Source: DASVDK01 sp036562265 [NCBI: Thermodesulfobacteriota bacterium]
Lineage (GTDB): Bacteria; DASVDK01
Assembly: GCA_036562265.1 (NCBI GenBank)
Contig: DATCKS010000163.1
Span: forward strand, 1-16,846
Direction: 5' to 3'
DNA: 16,846 bases
This document shows, one piece after another, positions 6,236 through 16,628 of this stretch. Positions within the stretch are counted from its first letter, which is position 1; each line of letters starts with the position of its first letter. Position numbers and translations under genes: made by a program. The notes under the pieces were generated by a model. The model saw only the letters and a program-made list of their open reading frames with translations, made no database searches and was not told the origin of the DNA.

Positions 6236-7003
6236 TCAGGGCATGTACAGGCCGCCGTTCACGTGGATGGTCTGCCCGGTGATGAACCGTCCCGTCGGCA
6301 CGCAGAGCGCGACCACCATCGCGGCCACCTCCTCCGGCCGCCCGGGCCGGCCGACGAGCGGCTCGCCGCTCCCCGCGATCGTGGCGCTCTCCCCCGCCGT
6401 CGCCGCGCGCTGGCCGCCGATCTTCCCCGGCGCGACGCAGTTGACCGTGACGCCCCTCGACGCGAACTCCACCGCGAGCGCCTTCGTGAGCCCGACGAGA
6501 CCGGCCTTGGCGGCGGCGACGTGCGCGCGGTTGTAGGCGCCGGTGTGGGCGGTGAGCCCGCCGATGTTGATGATCGTCCCGCCGCCGTTCGCGAGCATCA
6601 CGGGCAGCACGGCCCGCGAGCAGAGAAAGGCGCCGTCGAGGATGACGCTCGTGATCTCCCGCCACTCGGCCAGGCTCATCTCGGTGAACGGCGACTGCTT
6701 CCGGTTCGCGGCGTTGTTGACCAGGATGTCGATGCGGCCGAAGGTCTCCACCACGCGGCGGACCATGGCCTCGACCTGCGCCTCGTCGGTCACGTCCGCG
6801 AGGTGCGCGAGGGCCCGGCCGCCCCTCGCCTCGACCTCCGCCACGACCGCCTGAGCCTCGGCCGCCGAGGTGCGTGCGTTGATGACGACGGCCGCGCCCT
6901 CGTCGGCGAGCGCCAGGGCGGTGGCCCGGCCGGTGCGGCGCACCGCCCCCGTGAGCAGCGCCACCCGCCCCTCGAGACGCCTCGGACTCACCCGTGTCTC
7001 CAT
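6236..7003 (-). CDS. SDR-fold protein (FabG-like) with altered catalytic residues
   Basis: A 255-residue protein with a clear short-chain dehydrogenase/reductase fold: a glycine-rich nucleotide loop TGAVRRTG (18-25), NNAAN at 96-100, and the C-terminal segment ITGQTIHVNGG. However, the usual Asn-Ser-Tyr-Lys tetrad is mostly absent. Where most relatives read INISS the sequence reads INIGG (Gly149 at the Ser place). The YxxxK motif reads VAAAK (Val162 and Lys166), and the helix-4 Asn appears to be Ile121. It may therefore be a non-redox SDR, a hydratase/epimerase-like enzyme, or a protein using other residues. The ATG at 7003 follows GGGAGG by about 11 bases. It lies 28 bp behind the MmgE/PrpD gene and is surely cotranscribed with it from the divergent control region. 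Confidence 0.85.
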   Translation of the reverse strand: METRVSPRRLEGRVALLTGAVRRTGRATALALADEGAAVVINARTSAAEAQAVVAEVEARGGRALAHLADVTDEAQVEAMVRRVVETFGRIDILVNNAANRKQSPFTEMSLAEWREITSVILDGAFLCSRAVLPVMLANGGGTIINIGGLTAHTGAYNRAHVAAAKAGLVGLTKALAVEFASRGVTVNCVAPGKIGGQRAATAGESATIAGSGEPLVGRPGRPEEVAAMVVALCVPTGRFITGQTIHVNGGLYMP

Positions 7004-7031
7004 ACGTGACGTACCTCCCGCCGCGTCGAGG

Positions 7032-8408
7032 TCAGGCCTGAAGGAGAGGCCGAAGGGTACGCACCACGTCCTCGACGCGATCGATCTCGAGCAGCGTCGC
7101 GATCAGATCCTTGCCGCGCGCCTTGCCGATCACCGGCTCGATGAGGTCGAGCGCCTTGTCGGCGACCTCCTGCCGGCTCATCGGGTTCGCGGGCGTCCCC
7201 TTCACGGCGTGCGTCCGGTGGTACAGCTCCTTGCCCGCCCGGGTCCTGATCCGGATGATCACCTGCCGCGGCGGCAGCGCCGTCGTCAGCTCGGCGTTGG
7301 GGACGAGTTCGATCCGCTTCCGGAGGTCGAGGATCGCCGGATCGGACATGCGCGCGTGGTCGTGCGAGCTCGCGAACGACAGCCGGCCGTCGACCAGGGT
7401 GAGCGCGACGAGGTGCTGGACGTTGATGTTCGGCATCGTCCGGTTGTCGACGAGCCGGCACCGGTCGTCGGGCAGCTCGATGACGAGGCGGTCGACGTCG
7501 CCGGCCGTGACGCCGTGCTGCTCCATGAGGAAGACGATCGCGTCGATCGCGCCCTGGATCGGCGAACCGACGCACCACTTCTTGATCGTCGCCTCGAGGA
7601 TCTCGTAGCGGCTGCCGAGGTCCTTCCACAGCTCGTCGGGACGGGGGTCGCTCGAGAACGCGGTGAAGAAGTTGTTCTCGCCCGAGAGCGCGTCGGCGAC
7701 GCCGGTGAAGCCGGCGGCCACCATCGTGGCCGCCGCCAGGGCGTTCCTCGCGGTCATGCCGCCGAAGTCGAAGGCCTTCTCGATGTGCTGGTCGTCACGG
7801 GCCCAGCACTGCACCCCGGAGGCCTGCTGGACCGTGTAGGAGAGCTGGTACCGGATCTGCTCCGGGCTGAAGCCCATGAGCGCTCCGGCCGCGGCGGAGG
7901 CGCCGAAGAGCGGCCCGACGCTGTGCGTGCTGTGCCCGCCGGCATAGAGCTTGCGCGGGCCGAGCGACATGTTGAACCTCGCGCCGATGTCGTAGCCGAG
8001 CACGACCGCCTTGAGGAGGTTCCTGCCGTTCTGGCGCGCCAGCTCGGCGGCCGCGAGCGCGCCCGGCACGATGCCGCAGCCGGGGTGGAACCGCCCGCCG
8101 AGGTGCGAGTCGTCGGTTTCGTCCGCGTGTCCCATCATGCCGTTGGCGAGGGCGGCGTTGATCGGGTTCGTGAGGAAGTCGGCCCCGATCACCGTGCAGA
8201 CCGGCGCGCCGCCGAGCGATTTCACGTAGGCGGTGGCCAGGATCCCGGGCTTCAACCGGGAGCCGGACACCATGGCGGCCACCGTGTCGAGCAGGTGGTG
8301 TCGTCCCTTCTCGAGCACCGGCTCCGGCACGTCGTTCGCGAGCGCGGTGCTGATGTACGAGCTGAGCTGCTCCATACCCGCCGACACTTCGCCATCGGTC
8401 GTTCTCAT
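7032..8408 (-). CDS. MmgE/PrpD family protein (first copy)
   Basis: A 458-residue cytoplasmic protein of the MmgE/PrpD superfamily, which includes 2-methylcitrate dehydratase, cis-aconitate decarboxylase and iminodisuccinate epimerase. Family landmarks are GHADETDDSH at 93-102 with His108 in RFHPG, the H-S-T-H segment at 159-162 (GGHSTHSVG), EKAFDFGG with Lys211, and IKKWCVGSPIQGAID at 275-289. These are the places of the acidic, histidine and lysine residues lining the family's active site. It probably dehydrates, epimerises or decarboxylates a di- or tricarboxylate, but the reaction cannot be assigned by motif. The ATG at 8408 has GGAGGA five bases away. It heads a two-gene minus-strand operon with the SDR gene and diverges from the RraA-led operon across 102 bp. 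It is not a recent duplicate of the plus-strand PrpD copy; the motifs differ throughout. Confidence 0.9.
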   Translation of the reverse strand: MRTTDGEVSAGMEQLSSYISTALANDVPEPVLEKGRHHLLDTVAAMVSGSRLKPGILATAYVKSLGGAPVCTVIGADFLTNPINAALANGMMGHADETDDSHLGGRFHPGCGIVPGALAAAELARQNGRNLLKAVVLGYDIGARFNMSLGPRKLYAGGHSTHSVGPLFGASAAAGALMGFSPEQIRYQLSYTVQQASGVQCWARDDQHIEKAFDFGGMTARNALAAATMVAAGFTGVADALSGENNFFTAFSSDPRPDELWKDLGSRYEILEATIKKWCVGSPIQGAIDAIVFLMEQHGVTAGDVDRLVIELPDDRCRLVDNRTMPNINVQHLVALTLVDGRLSFASSHDHARMSDPAILDLRKRIELVPNAELTTALPPRQVIIRIRTRAGKELYHRTHAVKGTPANPMSRQEVADKALDLIEPVIGKARGKDLIATLLEIDRVEDVVRTLRPLLQA

Positions 8409-8441
8409 CGACTCCTCCGCGGCCCTTCACAGGTAGAAGAC

Positions 8442-8494
8442 CAACACGTCGTTGCACGGCCGTGTGGGACTCCGTATTATGCACGATCACACGG
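8442..8494. promoter_or_regulatory. Divergent control region: sigma70-like promoter with inverted repeats
   Basis: In the 102-bp gap between the divergent operons, TTGCAC (8452-8457) and TATTAT (8475-8480) are separated by exactly 17 bp, a good plus-strand promoter in otherwise G+C-rich DNA. Transcription would start about 25 bases before the RraA-like ATG, whose RBS GGAGG is at 8499-8503. A perfect 10-bp palindrome CACGGCCGTG (8455-8464) overlaps the -35 and spacer. An inverted repeat CCGTGTG/CACACGG (8460-8466 and 8488-8494) brackets the -10. A weaker CAAC/GTTG repeat lies at 8442-8454. These could be operator sites for a regulator not encoded in the window. No clear minus-strand promoter was found. 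Confidence 0.5.
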
Positions 8495-8510
8495 ACCCGG
8501 AGGGGCACGC

Positions 8511-9176
8511 ATGGCGCTCATCGTCGAGCATCCGCAGCACCGTCGCCTCGCGCCCGACGAACTCGAGCCCTGGCGCGCGATCCCGGCGACGATCGCGTCC
8601 GACGAGACCAACCGCGCGGGCGGCCTCGATGCCGGCATCAAGCCGATCGGGGACGGCAAGCGGATCGCCGGGCAGGCCGTCACCGTCGAGGTGATGGCCG
8701 GCGACAACGCCGCGATCCAGCACGCCCTGGCGACCGCGCCGGCCGGGTCGGTGCTCGTCGTCGACGCCGGCGGCCTCATGCGCAACGCCGTCTGGGGCGG
8801 CATCACCCACCGCTACGCCGAACTGCGCCGCCTCGGCGGCGTCGTGATCGACGGCTGCGTCCGCGACGTCGCCGAGATCCGCGCCTCCTCCCTCCCCGTC
8901 TTCGCCCGTGGCGCGGTGCCCAACGGCCCGCACAAGGGGTTCGGCGGGGCCATCAACCGGCCGATCCAGTGCGGCGGCCGTCCCGTGCGCCCCGGCGACC
9001 TCGTGCTGGGCGACGACGACGGGGTCGTCGTCGTGCCGCTCGAGCAGGTGGACGAGGTGCTCGCGCGCTGCCGGGCGAAGCTCGAGCGGGAGGCCAGGCT
9101 CCTCGAGCGGCTCTCGGCCGGCGAGTCGATCCTCGAGGTCTTCAACGTACCCCCGGCCGACCGCATCGGCCGCTGA
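8511..9176 (+). CDS. RraA-like aldolase/decarboxylase family protein
   Basis: A 221-residue protein of the RraA-like fold, the family of class II 4-hydroxy-4-methyl-2-oxoglutarate/4-carboxy-4-hydroxy-2-oxoadipate aldolases. The signature is visible: VLVVDAGG (81-88) and VWGGITHRYAE (94-104), followed 20 residues later by IDGCVRDVAEIR (113-124), whose Arg118-Asp119 are the substrate- and metal-binding pair. PGDLVLGDDDGVVVVP (161-176) is the usual C-terminal core strand pair. Such enzymes cleave hydroxylated oxo-di/tricarboxylates to pyruvate-type products or decarboxylate oxaloacetate. The ATG at 8511 has GGAGG seven bases upstream and a promoter just before. As first gene of the catabolic plus-strand block it is more likely an aldolase than the RNase E inhibitor RraA; the exact substrate is unknown. 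Confidence 0.85.
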   Translation: MALIVEHPQHRRLAPDELEPWRAIPATIASDETNRAGGLDAGIKPIGDGKRIAGQAVTVEVMAGDNAAIQHALATAPAGSVLVVDAGGLMRNAVWGGITHRYAELRRLGGVVIDGCVRDVAEIRASSLPVFARGAVPNGPHKGFGGAINRPIQCGGRPVRPGDLVLGDDDGVVVVPLEQVDEVLARCRAKLEREARLLERLSAGESILEVFNVPPADRIGR

Positions 9177-9224
9177 CGGCCGCGCCACGTCGGTCCCGCC
9201 CCGTCCCGAGGAGAGACAGGACGC

Positions 9225-10322
9225 ATGAAGATCGTCGACATCACGGCCACGGCGCACCACATCGAGGTGCCGCTTCCCCTGTTCACGAAGAACGTGGTCA
9301 CGCGCCGCATCGTGTTCGCCCAGGTGAAGACCGACGAGGGGATCACCGGGTACGGCCTGACGGGCGGCCAGTTCCTCCCGTGGTCGGTCGTCGCGGCCCT
9401 CGAGAACGACTTCCTCGAGGTGGTGCGCGGCATGGACCCGCGCGACACCGAGGCGATCCACGAGAAGGTCTGGTGGGCGCTGAACATGCGCACCTTCACG
9501 GGCGTCGTCTCCTTCGCCCTCTCGGCCCTCGACATCGCCTGCTGGGACATCAAGGGGAAGGCGAGCGGCCGCACCGTCGCGCAGATGCTCGGCGGCGCCC
9601 GCGACTGGGCGCCGATCTACGTGACGTTCGGGTTCCCGATCTACGACCGGCAGCAGCTCGTCGAGGCCGCGAAGATCCAGGTCGACCGGGGGATCAAGCG
9701 CCTCAAGATGGTCGTCGGCGTGCATCCGGACGGCTGGGCGGAGGACGCCCGGAGGGTCCGCGCCGTGCGGGAGGCGATCGGTCCGGACGTCGAACTGATG
9801 CTCGACGCCAACTACAAGTTCTCCCCCATCGACGCGAAGCTCTTCTGCCGGGCGGTGGAGGACTGCGGGATCGTGTGGTTCGAGGAGCCGCTCTACGCGA
9901 ACGACGTTCGCGCCCTCGCCGACCTCCGTCGCGCCACGAGCATTCCGATCGCGGCGGGCCAGATGGAGGGCCACCGCTGGCGCCTGCGCGAGCTGATCGA
10001 GCATCAGGCGGTGGACATCCTGCAGCCAAACGTTTGTTACAATGGCGGCTATACGGAGACCCAGAAGGTCGCGCACATGGCGCAGGCCTTCAACGTCCAG
10101 ATCGCGAACGGCGGCGGCTGGCCGCTGTACAACCTGCACACGATGGCCGGGCTGATGAACGGCTGGCGGGTCGAGTTCCACCTCGGCATGCAGGAAGTCG
10201 GCGAGCGGATCTTCATCGATCCACCGAAGCCCGAGGGGAACATCGTGAGGGTCGGCCCGAAGCCGGGCGTCGGGCTCGAGCCGAACTTCGACGCGCTCGC
10301 CGCCTGCCAGATGAAGCGCTGA
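9225..10322 (+). CDS. Mandelate racemase/muconate lactonizing enzyme family protein
   Basis: A 365-residue member of the enolase superfamily, whose members abstract a proton alpha to a carboxylate on a Mg2+ ion (sugar-acid dehydratases, racemases, cycloisomerases). The N-terminal capping domain (1-125) includes FALSALDIACWDIKGK (97-112), and the barrel follows. Metal ligands Asp194 (LMLDANYKF) and Glu220 (WFEEPLY) are plain. The third-ligand region reads AAGQMEGHRW (244-251 onward) where most relatives have AGE, so Gln246 or Glu248 must serve. The KxK motif is KMV (Lys161), and the barrel-end segment reads NGGGWP (295-300) where mandelate racemase has its His. The reaction is therefore probably of a non-standard subgroup. 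It sits 48 bp after the RraA-like gene and 23 bp before PrpD copy two. Codons 268-277 are anomalously A/T-ending. Confidence 0.85.
   Translation: MKIVDITATAHHIEVPLPLFTKNVVTRRIVFAQVKTDEGITGYGLTGGQFLPWSVVAALENDFLEVVRGMDPRDTEAIHEKVWWALNMRTFTGVVSFALSALDIACWDIKGKASGRTVAQMLGGARDWAPIYVTFGFPIYDRQQLVEAAKIQVDRGIKRLKMVVGVHPDGWAEDARRVRAVREAIGPDVELMLDANYKFSPIDAKLFCRAVEDCGIVWFEEPLYANDVRALADLRRATSIPIAAGQMEGHRWRLRELIEHQAVDILQPNVCYNGGYTETQKVAHMAQAFNVQIANGGGWPLYNLHTMAGLMNGWRVEFHLGMQEVGERIFIDPPKPEGNIVRVGPKPGVGLEPNFDALAACQMKR
10027..10043 (+). promoter_or_regulatory. Intragenic A+T-rich palindrome pair (possible LacI/PurR-type operator)
   Basis: Inside the MR/MLE gene, CAAACGTTTG (10027-10036) is a perfect 10-bp palindrome equal to the core of PurR/LacI-family operators. 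It overlaps a second one, TTGTTACAA (10034-10042). TACAAT (10038-10043) resembles a -10 box, but the best -35 (TGGACA, 10012-10017) is 20 bp away, too far for a normal promoter. The underlying codons CCA, GTT, TGT, AAT and TAT are rare in this window. Confidence 0.3.
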
Positions 10323-10345
10323 GTCGAGGGGCGACGAACGAACGC

Positions 10346-11725
10346 ATGGCGACCACGGGCAAGGTCGACCTCGAGTACGGCGCGGCGCCGCTGCGCCTCA
10401 ACGTCAGTCGGCGCTTCTGCGAGTTCGCGGCCGGCGTGCGGTTCGAGGACCTCCCCGAGGCGGTCGTGCACGAGACCCGCCGCGGCGTCCTCGACTGGCT
10501 CGGCTGCGCGCTGGCCGGCAGCACGCACCCGACCATCACGAAGCTCCTCGCGGGCCTCACGGCCCTCGGCAGTCTCGAGCGGGTGCCGGTCATCGGGCGC
10601 AAGCGCCGGCTCGGCCTCGTCGAGGCGGCCATCGCCAACGGGCAGAGCGGCCACGTGCTCGATTTCGACGACACGCACATGGACGGCGTCGTGCTCCACA
10701 CGAGCTCGCCCGTCCTCGCCGCCCTGCTCTCCGCGGCCGAGACCGGCCGGTACGCCGGCCGCGACCTCATGGTCGCCTACGCGCTCGCCTTCGAGGCCGG
10801 AGTCCGGGTGGGCAAGGCGTCGCCCGGCCACCACGACGGGGGCTGGCACCTGACCGGCACGCTCGGCACGATCGCCGCCGGCGTCGCCGTCGGGCGGCTC
10901 CTCGGCCTCGACGCGACGCGGATGACCTGCGCCCTCGGCATCGCCACCACGCAGGCGGCCGGCATGCAGCAGAACCGGGGCACGATGTGCAAGTCGTTCC
11001 ACGCCGGCCGGGCGGCCTCGAGCGGTCTGCTCGCCGCCTTCCTCGCGCGCGAGGGGTTCGACAGTTCCGACGAGATCATCGAGGGCAAGCGCGGCTTCGC
11101 GCGCATCTTCAGCAACGTCGCCGCGCCGGATGCGCTCCTCGAGAACCTCGGCTCCGACTGGCAGATCGTCCGGAACGGCTACAAGCCCTATGCCTGCGGG
11201 GTCGTCCTCCACCCGCTCATCGACGGCACGATCGCGCTCGGATCGCGAGGCATCGACCCGTCGCGCGTCGAGTCGATCGAGCTGGTCGTCCATCCCGCTG
11301 CCGTCCGCATCACGGGGGTCGAGGACCCCAGGACCGGCCTCCAGTCGAAGTTCAGCATCTACCACTCGGCCGCCGTCGCCTTCCTCGATCGGGCGGCCGG
11401 CGTGGCGCAGTACAGCGACGAGCGCGCCGTCGCGCCGGACGTCGTGGAGCTGCGCCGCAAGGTCAGGGTCTCCGTGAACGACCGCTTCCGGAAGGACGAG
11501 GCGCACGTCGCCGTCGTGGAGATCGGCGGCGCCCGTCACGAGACCCACGTCGATCACGCGTCGGGCACCAGGGACAACCCGATGTCCGACGAGGCGATCG
11601 AGGCGAAGTTCCTGGCCAACGCCGTGCCGGTCGTCGGCGAGGCGCGCGCGCGGGAGATCGCGAGGACGGTCTGGTCCCTCGAGGACTGCGCCGACGTTCG
11701 CGACCTCCTCGCCCTGTGCGCGTGA
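10346..11725 (+). CDS. MmgE/PrpD family protein (second copy)
   Basis: A 459-residue MmgE/PrpD superfamily protein, clearly diverged from the minus-strand copy. Active-site landmarks are GHVLDFDDTH (102-111), His118 in VLHTSSPV, His168 in GWHLTGTLG, Lys216 in MCKSFHAGRAA and Lys280 in GYKPYACG. These correspond to the Asp, His and Lys residues that line the pocket in cis-aconitate decarboxylase and iminodisuccinate epimerase relatives. In most relatives the residue after the second His is Pro; here it is Thr119. It likely acts on a C4-C7 di- or tricarboxylic acid as dehydratase, epimerase or decarboxylase. The ATG at 10346 is 23 bp after the MR/MLE stop, with only a distant GAGGGG as RBS, so translational coupling is plausible. 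Having two diverged PrpD proteins in facing operons suggests two different steps or stereoisomers. Confidence 0.9.
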   Translation: MATTGKVDLEYGAAPLRLNVSRRFCEFAAGVRFEDLPEAVVHETRRGVLDWLGCALAGSTHPTITKLLAGLTALGSLERVPVIGRKRRLGLVEAAIANGQSGHVLDFDDTHMDGVVLHTSSPVLAALLSAAETGRYAGRDLMVAYALAFEAGVRVGKASPGHHDGGWHLTGTLGTIAAGVAVGRLLGLDATRMTCALGIATTQAAGMQQNRGTMCKSFHAGRAASSGLLAAFLAREGFDSSDEIIEGKRGFARIFSNVAAPDALLENLGSDWQIVRNGYKPYACGVVLHPLIDGTIALGSRGIDPSRVESIELVVHPAAVRITGVEDPRTGLQSKFSIYHSAAVAFLDRAAGVAQYSDERAVAPDVVELRRKVRVSVNDRFRKDEAHVAVVEIGGARHETHVDHASGTRDNPMSDEAIEAKFLANAVPVVGEARAREIARTVWSLEDCADVRDLLALCA

Positions 11726-11748
11726 CCGGGCGGGAGCGGGTCTCGAGG

Positions 11749-12219
11749 ATGCCGCCGGCCCGGTTGAGAGACGGGGAGCTGCTCTCCGGCGCGGCGCTGG
11801 CCGGCCTTGGCGTCTACATCGTCAGCGAAGCGAGCCAGTGGTCCTTCCTCGGCCCGACCGGTCCGGGACCGGGCTTCTTCCCGGTCTGCTACGGCGTCGC
11901 GATGGTGGTGCTGTCGCTCGTGCTCGTCGGGCGCCGCCTCTTCGCGAGCCGGCCGGCAAGAGGCGGCGAGGCGCCGAACCGGCACGGGGTCGCCGTCGCC
12001 CTCCTCACCTGGCTCGCCTTCGCCCTCACCATCCCCCTCATGAAGTACCTCGGCTTCCTGGTCGCGTTCGGGCTGCTCACGTTCTTCGTCGTCGTGGTCG
12101 TCTTCAGGCGCTCGATCGCGGCGGGCGTCGCGGCGGCCGTCCTCTGCCCGGCGGCGTTCCAGCTCGTCTTCCCGGTCCTCCTCCAGGTGCGGCTGCCGGT
12201 CGGCCGCTTCGGGTTCTGA
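11749..12219 (+). CDS. tctB: TTT transporter small membrane subunit (TctB family)
   Basis: A 156-residue membrane protein, the small subunit of the tripartite tricarboxylate transporter. Hydrophobic segments run at about 10-27, 43-61, 81-97, 99-118 and 122-145. The family motif GPGFFP is at 40-45, where it should be, just before the second segment. Its role is to assist the large permease TctA. I chose the ATG at 11749, 23 bp after the PrpD stop. A GTG at 11722 that overlaps that stop (GTGA) is an in-frame alternative adding nine residues; neither has a strong RBS. The stop is one base before the tctA ATG, so the two are coupled. Sequence conservation in this family is low and the call rests on length, topology, the motif and context. 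Confidence 0.85.
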   Translation: MPPARLRDGELLSGAALAGLGVYIVSEASQWSFLGPTGPGPGFFPVCYGVAMVVLSLVLVGRRLFASRPARGGEAPNRHGVAVALLTWLAFALTIPLMKYLGFLVAFGLLTFFVVVVVFRRSIAAGVAAAVLCPAAFQLVFPVLLQVRLPVGRFGF

Positions 12220-12220
12220 G

Positions 12221-13726
12221 ATGGAAGCCGTACGCGGGCTCCTCCACGGATTCGGCGTCGCGCTCGAGCCGGTCAACCTGATGTGGTGCGTCATCGGCTG
12301 CTTCCTCGGCACGATCATCGGGATCCTGCCGGGCCTCGGGCCGGCGGCCACCATCGCCATGCTGCTGCCGCTCACCTTCCGGATGGACCCCACCGGCGGC
12401 ATCATCATGCTGGCCGGCATCTACTACGGCGCGAAGTACGGCGGCTCGACGACCTCCATCCTGCTCAACATGCCGGGCGAGGCCTCGTCCGTCGTGACCT
12501 GCATCGACGGCTACCAGATGGCGAGGAAGGGCCGCGCCGGCGCGGCCCTCGGGATCGCGGCCATCGCCTCGTTCGTGGCCGGCACGATCGGCATCGTCAT
12601 CCTCACGTTCCTGGCCCCGCCGCTGGCGGAACTCGCCCTCTCCTTCAGCTCGCCGGAGTTCTTCGCGCTGATGGTGCTCGGGCTCGCGCTGGTCGTCCTC
12701 CTGGCGGGAGACTCGATGCTCAAGGCCGTGCTGGCGCTCCTTCTGGGGCTGTGGCTCGCGAGCATCGGCACCGACCTCTTCACCGCGCAGACCCGCTTCA
12801 CCATGGGACAGAGCGATCTCCTCGGCGGCATCGAGTTCATGGTCATCGCCGTCGGCGTCTACGCGATCACCGAGGTGATGCTGAGCATCGAGAACCGCGA
12901 GGAGGCCCGGCTCCTCCCGGTCCCCCGGGGGCTGCGCAACTACCTGCCGAGCTGGGAGGAGCTCAAGGCCTGCCGCTTCGCCTTCCTCAACGGGTCGCTG
13001 ACCGGCTTCTTCATCGGCACGCTGCCCGGCGCGGCGTCCTCGGTGTCGTCGTTCGTCTCCTACGGGATCGAGAAGGCGGTCTCGAAGCGGCCGGAACTCT
13101 TCGGCCACGGCGCGCCGGAGGGGCTGGCCGCCCCGGAGGGAGCCAACAACGCCGACTCGAGCGGCGCCATGCTCCCGCTCCTGAGCTTCGGCATCCCGGC
13201 CGGCGGGAGCACGGCCATGCTGCTCTCGGCCCTGATCCTCTGGGGGTATCGCCCCGGTCCGCTCCTCATCCAGGAGTCGCCGGACCTCTTCTGGGGCCTG
13301 GTGGCGAGCATGTACATCGGCAACGTGGTTCTCCTGCTGATGAACCTCCCGCTCGTCCCCCTCTTCGCCCAGATCCTCCGGATCCCGACGCACATCCTCT
13401 TCTCGATCGTCCTCGGCGTCTCGATCGTCGGCGCCTACAGCGTGTCGGGCAACCTCTTCGACGTGCTGATGCTCGCCGCGTTCGGCCTGCTCGGGTACGT
13501 CATGGCCAAGCTGTCGTATCCGACGGCGCCGCTGGTGCTCGGCTTCGTGCTGGGCGATCCCCTCGAGCGAGCCGTCCGTCAGTCGCTCACCATGTCGCAG
13601 GGGGACCCCTCGATCCTCGTCGCGCGGCCGATTGCCGCCGTCATCCTGCTGGTCGCCGCCGTCGTCCTCTGCTCGCCGCTCATTCGCCGTCTGGTCGGCG
13701 CCGGCCGGCGCACGGCCGCCACGTGA
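12221..13726 (+). CDS. tctA: TTT transporter large permease subunit (TctA family)
   Basis: A 501-residue polytopic permease with about 11-12 membrane segments. It shows the internal duplication of the family: GTIIGILPGLGPA (30-42) in the first half answers GFFIGTLPGAASS in the second. Other landmarks are YYGAKYGGSTTSILLN, the GHGAPEGLAAPEGANNA stretch and LLSFGIPAGGSTAMLL, all strongly conserved in TctA proteins. It imports a carboxylate delivered by the periplasmic binding protein, using an ion gradient. The gene starts one base after tctB, without an SD of its own that I can see, which suggests translational coupling. The order B-A-C differs from the classical C-B-A. The substrate cannot be read from the permease. 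Confidence 0.95.
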   Translation: MEAVRGLLHGFGVALEPVNLMWCVIGCFLGTIIGILPGLGPAATIAMLLPLTFRMDPTGGIIMLAGIYYGAKYGGSTTSILLNMPGEASSVVTCIDGYQMARKGRAGAALGIAAIASFVAGTIGIVILTFLAPPLAELALSFSSPEFFALMVLGLALVVLLAGDSMLKAVLALLLGLWLASIGTDLFTAQTRFTMGQSDLLGGIEFMVIAVGVYAITEVMLSIENREEARLLPVPRGLRNYLPSWEELKACRFAFLNGSLTGFFIGTLPGAASSVSSFVSYGIEKAVSKRPELFGHGAPEGLAAPEGANNADSSGAMLPLLSFGIPAGGSTAMLLSALILWGYRPGPLLIQESPDLFWGLVASMYIGNVVLLLMNLPLVPLFAQILRIPTHILFSIVLGVSIVGAYSVSGNLFDVLMLAAFGLLGYVMAKLSYPTAPLVLGFVLGDPLERAVRQSLTMSQGDPSILVARPIAAVILLVAAVVLCSPLIRRLVGAGRRTAAT

Positions 13727-13778
13727 TGCGATCCCAGTGCCCACGTAGACCGTTCGACACTCGCATACGGGAGACACC

Positions 13779-14750
13779 ATGAGACTGAGCGTTCTGGCAG
13801 CAGTCGCAGGCATCCTCGTCACGGTCGCGAGCGCGCACGCGCAGGGCTTCACGCCGACCCGGCCGGTGGAGGTCGTCGTCCACACCGGCCCCGGCGGCGG
13901 AACGGACGCGTTCGCCCGGGCCATGTTCACGGCGCTCCGGAAGGACGGGCTCCTCCCCGTCAACTTCCTGGTCGTGAACAAGACCGGGGGCGGCAGCGCG
14001 ACCGCCATGCGGTACCTCCAGGAGAAGACGGGCGACGATCACACCATCGCCATCTTCTCCAGCGTCTGGATCACCGACCCGCTCGTCCAGAAGGAGGCGC
14101 CGCTCACGATCGATCAGCTCACGCCGATCTCCCGGCTCGTGCTCGAGCCGGCGCTCTTCGTCGTGAACGCGAAGTCCCCGTACAAGACGCTCAAGGACTT
14201 CATCGACGCCGCCAAGGCGAACCCCGGCCAGCTCAAGCAGTCCGGCGGCTCGGTGCTCGCTCGCGACGCCGTCGTCCGGCACGTGCTGCGGGCGCACACC
14301 GGCGCCGACTGGTCGTTCATCTCCTTCCCGTCGGGCGGCGAGCGGGTCGCGGCGCTCCTCGGCGGCCACGTCGACATCATGATGATCGAGCCGAGCGAGG
14401 CGGGCGAGCTGATCCGCTCCGGTCGCCTCCGGGCCCTCGCGCAGATCGCCGACACGCGGATCCCGGGGTTCCCCGACGTGCCGACGCTCAAGGAGGCCGG
14501 GTTCGACGTCCCCAACGTGCCGCAGGCGCGCGGGGTCGTGGCGCCCCCGAAGATGCCGGCGGCGGCCGTCGCCTACTACGAGGACCTCTTCCGCCGCGCG
14601 TCGCAGTCGCCCGCCTACAAGCAGTACCTGGCGGACACCCAGCTCGAGAACGCCTACCTCGGCTCGAGCGACCTCGCCGGCTTCCTGAAGCAGTACCAGA
14701 ACCAGATGCGCGAGATCCTGAAGGGCGCCGGCGTCGCCGTCGTCCGCTAG
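13779..14750 (+). CDS. tctC: TTT periplasmic substrate-binding protein (TctC/Bug family)
   Basis: A 323-residue extracytoplasmic binding protein. Residues 1-21 are a signal peptide with a hydrophobic core and an A-H-A cleavage site before Gln22. There is no lipobox cysteine, so the mature protein should be free in the periplasm, implying a diderm cell. RPVEVVVHTGPGGGTDAFAR is the N-terminal Bug-family strand, loop and helix that clamps a carboxylate. VNKTGGGSATAM, the SPYKTLKDFIDAAKANPG segment and FPDVPTLKEAGFDV are equally typical. Length is standard. GGGAGA sits four bases before the ATG. It is 52 bp after tctA and is followed within six bases by a perfect 32-bp palindrome, which could protect or raise its mRNA over downstream genes. 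Confidence 0.95.
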   Translation: MRLSVLAAVAGILVTVASAHAQGFTPTRPVEVVVHTGPGGGTDAFARAMFTALRKDGLLPVNFLVVNKTGGGSATAMRYLQEKTGDDHTIAIFSSVWITDPLVQKEAPLTIDQLTPISRLVLEPALFVVNAKSPYKTLKDFIDAAKANPGQLKQSGGSVLARDAVVRHVLRAHTGADWSFISFPSGGERVAALLGGHVDIMMIEPSEAGELIRSGRLRALAQIADTRIPGFPDVPTLKEAGFDVPNVPQARGVVAPPKMPAAAVAYYEDLFRRASQSPAYKQYLADTQLENAYLGSSDLAGFLKQYQNQMREILKGAGVAVVR

Positions 14751-14755
14751 TTCGC

Positions 14756-14787
14756 GCGTGGCCCGGCGCGCGCGCGCCGGGCCACGC
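14756..14787. repeat. Perfect 32-bp palindrome between tctC and the Ldh_2 gene
   Basis: The left arm GCGTGGCCCGGCGCGC (14756-14771) is exactly the reverse complement of 14772-14787, and the repeat begins six bases past the tctC stop. RNA from this region would form an extremely stable G+C hairpin. There is no T-run after it, and only 24 bases separate it from the next start. It is more likely an mRNA 3'-end stabiliser or partial terminator than a full stop. It also argues against the in-frame GTG at 14758 as a start, because that codon lies inside the stem. Confidence 0.75.
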
Positions 14788-14811
14788 CTCCCGATCGAGG
14801 CCACCCTCCCG

Positions 14812-15894
14812 ATGAGCGAAACACGTCTCCTGTTCGCCGCCGAGGAGCTGCACGCCTTCACGGCGGCCGTCTTCCGGCACTGGAACATGCCCGAGGCCGA
14901 CGCGCGCGTCGTCGCGACCGCGCTCGTGTCGGCCGACCTCCGGGGCGTCGACACGCACGGCGTCGCCCGCATCCCGTCCTACGTCGAGCGCTTCCGCCGG
15001 CGCCTCGTCGATCCCCGCCCGGCGATCACGGTGACCTCGCGGATGCCCTGGGCCGCGGTGGTCGACGGCGCCAACGGCATGGGGCCGGTCGTCGCGAACG
15101 CCGCCATGGGCGAGGCGATCCGGCGCGCGAACACGTTCGGCATCGGGGCTGCCACCGCGAAGCGGAGCAACCACTTCGGCGCGGCGGCCCACTACGCCCT
15201 GCAGGCCGTCGGTCACGACTGCATCGGCGTCTGCCTGTCGCCGGCCTCGAAGTCGCTCGCCCCCTACGGCAGCCGCGAACCGCTCTTCGGCACCAACCCC
15301 ATCGCCGTCGCCGTGCCGGCCGGCTCCCACGCGCCCTGGGTCATGGACATGGCCACGAGCATCGCGGCGCGCGGCCACATCCGCCTGGCGGCGCGCCACG
15401 GCAAGCCGATCCCGGAGGGATGGGCCCTCGACGCCGAAGGGCGCCCGACCACCGACGCCGAGAAGGCGCTGGCCGGCGTCATGCTCCCCTTCGCGGGCGC
15501 CAAGGGCTCCGCCCTGGCGATGATGGTCGACATCCTGGGCGGCGTCCTCTCCGGCTCCGCGTTCGGCGGCGAGATCCGCGACATGACGCGAGACTTCGAG
15601 GCGCCGCAGGACGTCGGCCACTTCTTCCTGGCGTTCAAGATCGAGGCGTTCATGCCGCTCGCCGAGTTCACGAGCCGCATGGAGACCGAGATCGCGCGCC
15701 TCAAGGCGCTCAGGCCGGCGGCCGGCTTCACCGAGGTCCTGTACCCCGGCGAGCCGGAGGCGCGGCGAGAGGCCGAGCGCCGCGCCAATGGCATCCCGCT
15801 GTCGCCGCAGGTCGTCGACAGCCTGAAGGCGGTCGCCGACGAGGCCGGCGTCGCCTTTCCGGCCCCACGGGGCGGCGGTCCCACGCCGGAGTGA
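14812..15894 (+). CDS. Ldh_2 family malate/lactate/sulfolactate-type dehydrogenase
   Basis: A 360-residue NAD(P)-dependent 2-hydroxyacid dehydrogenase of the Ldh_2 (YlbC/YiaK/ComC) family, structurally unrelated to classical lactate dehydrogenases. Visible motifs are VDTHGVARIPSYVERF (46-61), with the conserved His49 and Arg53, then SNHFGAAAHYA (119-129), GTNPIAVAVP (160-169), WVMDMATS (176-183), and GAKGSALAMMVDIL (229-242). Members oxidise malate, lactate, ureidoglycolate, 2,3-diketogulonate or (R)-sulfolactate, so the motif does not fix the substrate. I chose the ATG at 14812; a GTG at 14758 sits inside a palindrome. The stop overlaps the start of the TauE-like gene by 4 bp. Context implies oxidation of the imported hydroxy-carboxylate or of an intermediate. 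Confidence 0.9.
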   Translation: MSETRLLFAAEELHAFTAAVFRHWNMPEADARVVATALVSADLRGVDTHGVARIPSYVERFRRRLVDPRPAITVTSRMPWAAVVDGANGMGPVVANAAMGEAIRRANTFGIGAATAKRSNHFGAAAHYALQAVGHDCIGVCLSPASKSLAPYGSREPLFGTNPIAVAVPAGSHAPWVMDMATSIAARGHIRLAARHGKPIPEGWALDAEGRPTTDAEKALAGVMLPFAGAKGSALAMMVDILGGVLSGSAFGGEIRDMTRDFEAPQDVGHFFLAFKIEAFMPLAEFTSRMETEIARLKALRPAAGFTEVLYPGEPEARREAERRANGIPLSPQVVDSLKAVADEAGVAFPAPRGGGPTPE

Positions 15895-16628
15895 CGCCGC
15901 TCGATCTCGTCCTGGTCGGCGTCTCGGCCTTCCTGACCTCGACGATCGCCGGCCTCTCGGGGTACGGCGCCGGACTCCTCATGCCGCTCGTCCTGGCCCC
16001 GGTGCTCGGCGCGCAGGCCGTCGTGCCGGTCCTGGCGGTCGCGGCGCTCTTCAACAACGCGAGCCGGCTCCTCGCCTTCCGCGACCAGGTCGACTGGCGC
16101 CGGGCGGCGGCGCTCGTCGCGGCGGCCGTCCCGACCTGCATCCTCGGCGCCACCTTCTACACCCGTCTGGACGCGCGGCAGGCGTCGTGCGTGATCGGCC
16201 TGGTCCTCCTCCTGCTCGTCCCCGCCCGCCGGCGCCTCGGCAAGCGGCTGATCGGCGGCTCGACCGCGGCCGGCGTCGCGAGCGGCGCCGTCTACGGCCT
16301 CCTGATCGGCAGCGCGCCGGGCGCGGGCCTCGTCCTCATCCCCATCCTCATGGGCATGGGGCTCGCCGGCCGTGCCGTGGTCGCGACCGACAGCGCCGTG
16401 TCGCTGACCGTCGGCCTGGTCAAGGTGAGCACCTTCCAGGCGTTCGGGTTCCTTCCCGCGGCGTGGTGGGCCGCCGCGATCGTCATCGGCCTCTGCGGCG
16501 TGCCGGGCGCGTTCGTGGCGCGCTGGCTCGGCGACCGCCTCCACGCGCGCGTGCTCGACGGCATCCTCGACGCCGGCGTCGTGATCGGCGGCGGCATGCT
16601 CCTCCTTCGCGGGCTCGGCCTTGCGTGA
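15891..16628 (+). CDS. TauE/SafE family anion permease
   Basis: A 245-residue membrane protein with about seven or eight hydrophobic segments. The duplicated TauE/SafE pattern is present: an N-terminal half beginning LVGVSAFLTSTIAGLSGYGAG (with GAG followed by MPLVL) and a second half beginning STAAGVASGAVYGLLIGSAPG (with GAG followed by LVLIPIL). The family exports sulfite, sulfoacetate and other small organic anions, although many members act on unknown solutes. The start is the GTG at 15891, overlapping the Ldh_2 stop as GTGA, so the two are translationally coupled. This tight link to a carboxylate uptake and catabolic block suggests it exports a by-product or intermediate anion. It ends 15 bp before the convergent response regulator gene, with no room for a separate terminator. 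Confidence 0.85.
   Translation: MTPLDLVLVGVSAFLTSTIAGLSGYGAGLLMPLVLAPVLGAQAVVPVLAVAALFNNASRLLAFRDQVDWRRAAALVAAAVPTCILGATFYTRLDARQASCVIGLVLLLLVPARRRLGKRLIGGSTAAGVASGAVYGLLIGSAPGAGLVLIPILMGMGLAGRAVVATDSAVSLTVGLVKVSTFQAFGFLPAAWWAAAIVIGLCGVPGAFVARWLGDRLHARVLDGILDAGVVIGGGMLLLRGLGLA

Follow-up and report, generated by a model that had tools for sequence, protein, structure and literature searches.

The window analysed here, a stretch of 16,846 nucleotides (71.7% G+C) from the Thermodesulfobacteriota bacterium DASVDK01 sp036562265, carries ten genes at positions 6236-16628 that form two operons, which lie back to back across a 102-bp gap and do not face each other as the first-pass annotation had it. 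With moderate confidence, we interpret these two divergent operons as a single island that imports and breaks down a small hydroxylated di- or tricarboxylic acid; the acid most likely belongs to the tartrate class, being either tartrate itself or a substituted malate or tartrate. The island is built of known families, and its newest and most interesting element is a protein of the MR/MLE family that belongs to a non-canonical subgroup of the enolase superfamily. An island for carboxylate uptake and catabolism, as first annotated, is thus supported, but its integrity as an exact ten-gene unit, the link of its RraA-like gene to the others and an ordinary chemistry of the MR/MLE protein are not. 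We infer the substrate, the order of the steps, each of the reactions and the co-regulation; the substrate class can probably be narrowed to tartrate-like hydroxy-di/tricarboxylates, though not fixed, because the neighbours of the orthologous genes include predicted D-tartrate dehydratase (TarD), tartrate dehydrogenase, a C4-dicarboxylate-type symporter and TcuA.

A non-canonical subgroup of the MR/MLE family

The MR/MLE protein (positions 9225-10322, plus strand, 365 residues) matches both the capping domain MR_MLE_N (45.1 bits) and the barrel domain MR_MLE_C (187.4 bits), and its structure model (pLDDT 92.6) aligns to enolase-superfamily structures with Z-scores up to 46.9, many of them tied. 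The searches with this model thus confirm the fold and pick no function. The catalytic signature of mandelate racemase consists of a KxK motif on the second barrel strand, Asp/Glu/Glu metal ligands and an Asp-His dyad of strands 6 and 7, and we named the positions of the window's protein on the assumption that they follow this signature. When the protein was aligned with 80 relatives, K161, D194, E220, E221, G245, Q246, E248 and N269 were invariant in all 81 sequences. The first lysine of KxK is thus retained throughout (K161), and the second is Val in 79 sequences and Ile in two; D194 and E220 stand for the first two metal ligands, and the third is Gln246 in 81/81, with the invariant E248 nearby; the Asp of the dyad is N269 in every sequence. 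The column of the dyad His, followed by a GGGWP loop, holds Asn in 65 sequences including the window's, His in 15 and Ile in one, so that 66 of the 81 are without it. The 15 sequences that retain the His are a truncated one (L071) and 14 from actinobacteria (L032, L035, L037, L042, L044-L046, L049, L051, L053, L057, L062, L064 and L067). The same shifts of position are visible in the alignments to the structures 5olc and 4ggb.

As a control, we took 31 other MR/MLE proteins encoded in the same loci, four of which were removed by a length filter, and aligned the rest. The canonical KxK, GE, Asp and His are retained in 25 of the 27 that were kept, a set that covers few families since 23 of its members, all among these 25, are TarD-like. 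One control protein (L001_16) deviates from the canonical site in another way, and a more distant MR/MLE protein (L047_5) shares the GQ and QPN signature of the window's relatives; to judge from this shared signature, the non-canonical subgroup extends beyond the window's family. The α-proton abstraction that the first-pass annotation took for granted in this protein is therefore not a safe assumption, as most of the canonical catalytic residues are absent. We tentatively propose that the protein founds a functionally distinct subgroup of the enolase superfamily, with a rebuilt Asp/Glu/Gln metal site, an invariant Glu close to it and, in most members, no standard acid/base pair. It might catalyse an undescribed reaction whose product goes to D-tartrate dehydratase, or to a PrpD/RraA route in the case of this island. 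Members of the subgroup are found in Actinomycetota, Acidobacteriota, Desulfobacterota and Proteobacteria. If they are active, the enolase-superfamily scaffold works without the second lysine, the Asp-His pair and the third acidic metal ligand.

Sub-modules conserved in related loci

With the MR/MLE protein as query, one genome scan yielded 122 pattern matches and 93 confirmed relatives, and we retained the 80 best loci (53-76% identity). These are not independent, since many come from Nocardia and Rhizobiales, and several of the contigs are short, with 44 of the 80 exceeding 20 kb. The first-pass annotation had proposed a neighbourhood search for co-conservation of the ten families as a check, and its outcome is mixed. 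The exact ten-gene set occurs in none of the 80 loci (0/80), and we thus rejected conservation of the whole island, but two sub-modules recur, namely, MR/MLE with a tripartite tricarboxylate transporter (TTT) and PrpD, and PrpD with an SDR oxidoreductase. By tblastn, TctA was found in 39 loci, TctC in 39, PrpD in 31 and SDR in 19, while Ldh_2 (4) and TauE (2) are only occasional and TctB was matched in one. Control regions, 20 in number and 319,580 bases in total, were chosen arbitrarily, not at random, from seven of these genomes; in them, TctA and TarD-like genes were matched in 0/20 and PrpD and SDR in 1/20 each, so that TctA and PrpD are meaningful neighbours.

The MR/MLE gene and the first of the two MmgE/PrpD genes of the island (PrpD-1) occur together in four other loci (L001, L036, L144 and L152). 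In L144, the MR/MLE gene (58%) adjoins PrpD-1 (50%) and TctA. L152, a whole contig from Rhodospirillales that contains L029 and L150, harbors six of the ten window families as found by similarity: it encodes TcuA (609 bits, cut-off 369), SDR (73%), PrpD-1 (59%), TctC, TctA, two additional PrpDs, PrpD-2 (43%), TarD, a tartrate dehydrogenase (567 bits, cut-off 470) and MR/MLE (60%), and a TctB-sized, unscored open reading frame (ORF) stands at the expected position. In a separate survey of 33 regions with PrpD-1 relatives, several of them from the same genomes, TctA is present in 13, and an SDR gene 61-73% identical to the window's adjoins PrpD-1 in five, in more than one orientation (L150/L152 73%, L100 66%, L137 65%, L102 63% and L081 61%). 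Expansions of the MmgE/PrpD family were also seen with one query at an E-value of 1e-20, giving 41 matches in genome G002 (of L002), 27 in G003 (L017), 22 in G005 (L034) and 15 in G007 (L020).

All three subunits of a TTT are encoded in the window, namely, the small membrane subunit TctB (11749-12219, plus strand, Pfam 56 bits), the large membrane subunit TctA (12221-13726, plus strand, 523.5 bits) and the periplasmic Bug-type binding protein TctC (13779-14750, plus strand, 153.5 bits), the best solved relative of which is 25hk. The nearest TctA that we found, 54-55% identical, is in a Propionibacteriales locus (L034/L184), where an operon PrpD-TctB-TctA-TctC-PrpD adjoins MR/MLE and TarD genes and repeats the window's order PrpD-TctB-TctA-TctC. 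At a threshold of 1e-150, TctA is matched in 1/296 and 2/299 genomes of two groups. A plasmid of Sodalis praecaptivus (L180) carries a TTT with a 50% identical TctA, two PrpDs, a cysteine dioxygenase and a rhodanese, possibly a thio-dicarboxylate system. Our searches of the open literature, which probably missed the slash spelling "MmgE/PrpD", returned no paper joining PrpD, TTT and mandelate racemase, TTT and MmgE PrpD, or PrpD and tartrate.

A possible link to tartrate metabolism

The commonest unexpected neighbour of the MR/MLE relatives is a second MR/MLE protein that is TarD-like, a representative of which matches the structures 4kem (E-value 5.9e-170) and 2dw7 (7.7e-165), the latter of which we take to be the D-tartrate dehydratase of Bradyrhizobium (Bll6730). 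This gene was detected in 34 of the 80 loci by clustering and in 36 by tblastn (the extra two being L020 and L033); it lies on the same strand as the MR/MLE gene in all 32 loci where both were called, and overlaps it by 4 bp in four. A sodium:dicarboxylate symporter (SDF) was found in 14 loci by clustering and in 17 by tblastn, and a sampled one is closest to DctA, under the cut-off (463.7 vs 513). Among the closest known systems are operons that pair TarD with a dicarboxylate symporter, which the loci of the MR/MLE relatives resemble in having TarD-like genes close by. However, the window has no TarD, and its MR/MLE protein is 23-28% identical to the TarD-like proteins and is without the KxK, Glu, Asp and His of TarD.

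In a quick tree of the MR/MLE proteins, the presence of TarD changes at least eight times: the gene is found in a large clade that spans Actinomycetes, Acidobacteria and Alphaproteobacteria, and it reappears in Desulfobulbia. The window's protein groups with that of a SAR116 locus (L001; SH-aLRT 99) and 11 betaproteobacterial sequences, the program having flagged the window's and the L001 sequences as long branches. Genes of the FAA_hydrolase family, one of them confirmed with Pfam, lie divergently beside the MR/MLE gene in 5 of these 11 betaproteobacterial loci (L003, L004, L008, L011 and L016). The partner enzymes of the MR/MLE protein therefore differ between loci. Families such as FAA_hydrolase and the methylisocitrate-lyase-like proteins include oxaloacetate decarboxylases, and by analogy a common 2-oxo acid intermediate across the loci is possible.

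Clusters found through the SDR and PrpD-1 genes also contain genes of tartrate metabolism. A Pacificitalea cluster harbors orthologs of PrpD-1 and SDR, four other PrpDs, two TTTs, a tartrate dehydrogenase (570.7 bits, cut-off 470.4) and PdxA; in Phyllobacterium, a 56% identical SDR occurs with a TTT, PrpDs and two annotated tartrate dehydrogenases, and in Paracoccus versutus a 65% identical SDR with an annotated TcuA, a TTT and PrpDs. The Pacificitalea and Phyllobacterium clusters resemble the window in their SDR (56-61%) and in combining PrpD genes with a TTT, the PrpD-1 ortholog of Pacificitalea being 50% identical, but they have tartrate dehydrogenase and PdxA and, in the stretches compared, no match to the MR/MLE protein, whereas the window has MR/MLE, RraA and Ldh_2. 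Should this link hold, several large families whose functions are mostly unknown (MmgE/PrpD, TTT and the MR/MLE subgroup) would be tied to tartrate-class acids, so that their substrates become testable.

Active sites of the two MmgE/PrpD proteins

PrpD-1 (7032-8408, minus strand, 458 residues; Pfam 174.9 and 89.7 bits) and PrpD-2 (10346-11725, plus strand, 459 residues; 231.8 and 131.3 bits) each match the two Pfam domains of the family. MmgE/PrpD enzymes have a conserved set of His, Asp/Glu, His, Lys and Lys (PMC12290011, PMC7347537). Both proteins of the window carry this set, the putative last Lys of PrpD-2 aligning one column off. PrpD-1 retains H94, E97, H108, H159, K211 and K276; of its 34 homologues, 33-34 share His94, Glu97, His108, Lys211 and Lys276, and just 15 share His159. 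Likewise, 6-7 of the seven homologues of PrpD-2 share its His103, Asp106, His118, His168 and Lys216. The set is common to these two proteins and to IDS-epimerase, methylsuccinate isomerase and cis-aconitate decarboxylase, from which they differ in having no Tyr base and in reaching no NCBIfam equivalog. The Tyr base expected of a two-base epimerase or isomerase (Tyr145 of IDS-epimerase) is Leu154 in PrpD-1, with Tyr in 2/34 homologues, and His163 in PrpD-2, with Tyr in 6/7 relatives. With Leu154 at this position, one-base chemistry fits PrpD-1 better than two-base epimerisation. The nearest solved relatives are IDS-epimerase (2hp3) for PrpD-1 and IRG1 of B. subtilis (7bra) for PrpD-2. Against the NCBIfam models of 2-methylcitrate dehydratase, PrpD-1 scores 23-27 bits and PrpD-2 32-47 bits, far under the curated cut-offs of 458-950, and we therefore rejected this label for both.

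A putative route and its alternatives

Taken together, the families suggest the following route. TctC would capture the acid and TctAB would import it; the MR/MLE protein might then carry out Mg-assisted chemistry at the α-carbon of the imported acid, either dehydration or epimerisation. PrpD-1, with its one-base active site, may hydrate, dehydrate or decarboxylate an intermediate, and PrpD-2, whose site is two-base-like, may isomerise or hydrate another one. Ldh_2 would yield a 2-oxo acid by oxidising a 2-hydroxy acid, and the RraA-like protein could decarboxylate this product or cleave it towards pyruvate, while the SDR oxidoreductase might balance an oxo or hydroxy by-product and TauE would export an anionic end product.

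Several results weigh against a tartrate-class island. The residues normally needed by MR/MLE dehydratases and racemases are mostly missing from the window's MR/MLE protein. Neither TarD nor tartrate dehydrogenase is among the ten island genes as scanned with Pfam and NCBIfam, both being confined to related loci; moreover, clustering and tblastn found no TarD in the window's own MR/MLE subclade (L001 and the 11 betaproteobacterial sequences, some on short contigs), which limits the assignment of the window to tartrate. The sister locus L001 points instead to tricarboxylates, with TcuA above its cut-off and methylisocitrate-lyase-like and RipC-like genes under theirs. The other TctA relatives, 49-51% identical (L177, L178, L180, L182 and L183), sit in varied contexts, because of which the transporter alone does not seem to fix the substrate. 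TctC was also matched in 3 of the 20 control regions (nine copies, all in G002); since it is frequent there as well, its neighbours are uninformative, and we dropped it as evidence of linkage. Some of these genomes contain very large numbers of MmgE/PrpD genes, with 41 matches in G002 and 27 in G003. Finally, RraA is unlinked in related loci: its association with the other genes, assumed in the first annotation, was not borne out, with weak matches in 2 of the 80 loci that are merely 27-30% identical. We thus rejected RraA as a linked partner, as 3 of 299 genomes have a match at 1e-40 and the regions around these three are without other island genes; one of them contains a CaiB homologue.

A tricarboxylate route for aconitate, tricarballylate or hydroxycitrate, with the PrpDs acting as aconitate decarboxylase or hydratase types, appears unlikely to us. 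The structures closest to both PrpDs are IDS-epimerase, IRG1 and cis-aconitate decarboxylase; L001 has, besides TcuA and the methylisocitrate-lyase-like and RipC-like genes, a CaiB-type gene, which like the latter two is under its cut-off; and TcuA accompanies the SDR ortholog in P. versutus and L152 and lies near PrpD-1 in L138 and L139. On the other hand, no such lyase or CoA transferase is included in the ten genes of the window, the scores of the two PrpDs against NCBIfam PrpD models (23-47 bits vs 458-950) are far too low, and the loci associated with TarD indicate C4 acids.

That no single pathway is involved, and that two or three independent carboxylate modules are adjacent by chance in a genome with many TTT and PrpD genes, is in our view rather improbable. 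The lack of the complete set in all 80 loci, the unlinked RraA and the expansions of PrpD in genomes of related loci speak for this explanation, as does the finding of neither a regulator (Pfam) nor a promoter (sigma-70 scan). However, the genes are tightly spaced within each operon, MR/MLE and PrpD-1 co-occur in the four loci given above, and the order PrpD-TctB-TctA-TctC recurs in L034. Least probable, and in our opinion quite doubtful, is the catabolism of an organosulfonate or organosulfur dicarboxylate by TTT uptake, a sulfolactate-type Ldh_2, decarboxylation by a thiamine pyrophosphate (TPP) enzyme pair (698-1818) and sulfite export by TauE, since, despite a best NCBIfam match of Ldh_2 to L-sulfolactate dehydrogenase, matches of the TPP pair to the α and β subunits of sulfopyruvate decarboxylase, homologues of its β subunit near MR/MLE and PrpD-1 genes, a rhodanese cluster in related loci and the rhodanese and cysteine dioxygenase of the Sodalis TTT plasmid, every match to a sulfolactate or sulfopyruvate model falls short of its curated cut-off (269.9/500, 117.1/147.95 and 160.5/221.5), a Pfam scan of 16 window genes showed no desulfonating enzyme, and the TPP pair is 4.4 kb distant, with histidine kinase, BON and DsrE genes in between.

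The remaining enzymes and neighbouring genes

The classical motif of the HMG/CHA aldolases and RraA is D-X20-R-D, and a second aldolase motif is worded G-X20-R-D-X2-E/D. The RraA-like protein of the island (8511-9176, plus strand, 221 residues; Pfam RraA-like 145.7 bits) reads G97-X20-R118-D119-X2-E122 and thus has Gly97 in place of the Asp of the classical motif; it agrees with the second one at G97, R118, D119 and E122. That the class II aldolases of this group have two motifs is stated in PMC5065237. Relatives of the protein have Gly, Glu or Asp at the position of Gly97. With HMG/CHA aldolase and with RraA (3noj, its closest solved relative), it shares the fold family and the R-D pair, but it has Gly for the metal-side Asp, and the ten NCBIfam models that it matched are all under their curated cut-offs, for which reason we rejected a plain HMG-aldolase label. 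The same holds for a plain sulfolactate label of the Ldh_2 protein (14812-15894, plus strand, 360 residues; Pfam 420.6 bits), a dehydrogenase of the malate/L-lactate/sulfolactate type, the best NCBIfam match of which, L-sulfolactate dehydrogenase, gave 269.9 bits against a cut-off of 500. The last gene of the plus-strand operon (15891-16628, 245 residues) encodes a predicted TauE/SafE-type membrane anion exporter (Pfam TauE 74.4 bits, cut-off 32.6), and the SDR oxidoreductase (6236-7003, minus strand, 255 residues; Pfam adh_short_C2 184.7 bits) is FabG-like.

Upstream of the island, the window contains the C-terminal end of an α-amylase-type enzyme, the two-subunit TPP enzyme and then a GAF/PAS histidine kinase, as well as a triple BON protein and a DsrE-like protein. 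The TPP decarboxylase is related to sulfopyruvate/phosphonopyruvate decarboxylase, and its β subunit is above the cut-off of an unnamed NCBIfam model (345.5 vs 240 bits). Homologues of at least this subunit lie near PrpD-1 in 5 of the 33 regions, all of one genome family, and near MR/MLE in two Nocardia loci (L064 and L067), and the enzyme may belong to a wider module. The rhodanese cluster, unexplained in a carboxylate cluster, is found in 12 of the 80 loci, and the one member that was scanned has four rhodanese domains; the rhodanese protein adjoins an α/β hydrolase near MR/MLE in L029, L041, L043, L048, L050, L063 and others.

Gene layout, intergenic region and a palindrome

All ten ORFs are present, each with a single stop, and their families were confirmed as first annotated, every protein exceeding the gathering cut-off that Pfam sets for its assigned family. 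We placed the start of Ldh_2 at ATG 14812 in preference to GTG 14758, because a 30-nt palindrome (14757-14786) occupies the preceding gap, and that of TauE at GTG 15891, which overlaps the stop of Ldh_2 by 4 bp. With these revised starts, the gaps in the plus-strand operon are 48, 23, 23, 1, 52, 61 and -4 bp, and the gap between SDR and PrpD-1 on the minus strand is 28 bp. As these gaps are short, two transcription units are plausible. The 102-bp divergent intergenic region (8409-8510) had been described as a shared control region. The gap is real, but only as a matter of geometry: positions 8300-8620 gave no promoter match when scanned for the sigma-70 consensus, the gap was likewise negative in scans for promoters and terminators, and a Pfam scan of the ten island genes revealed no regulator among them, so that shared control is putative. 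The palindrome between TctC and Ldh_2 is perfect and forms a strong hairpin, the segment 14740-14815 folding at -42.9 kcal/mol (z -3.37), and it occurs once in the window even when up to three mismatches are allowed. This GC palindrome could attenuate or protect the operon mRNA.

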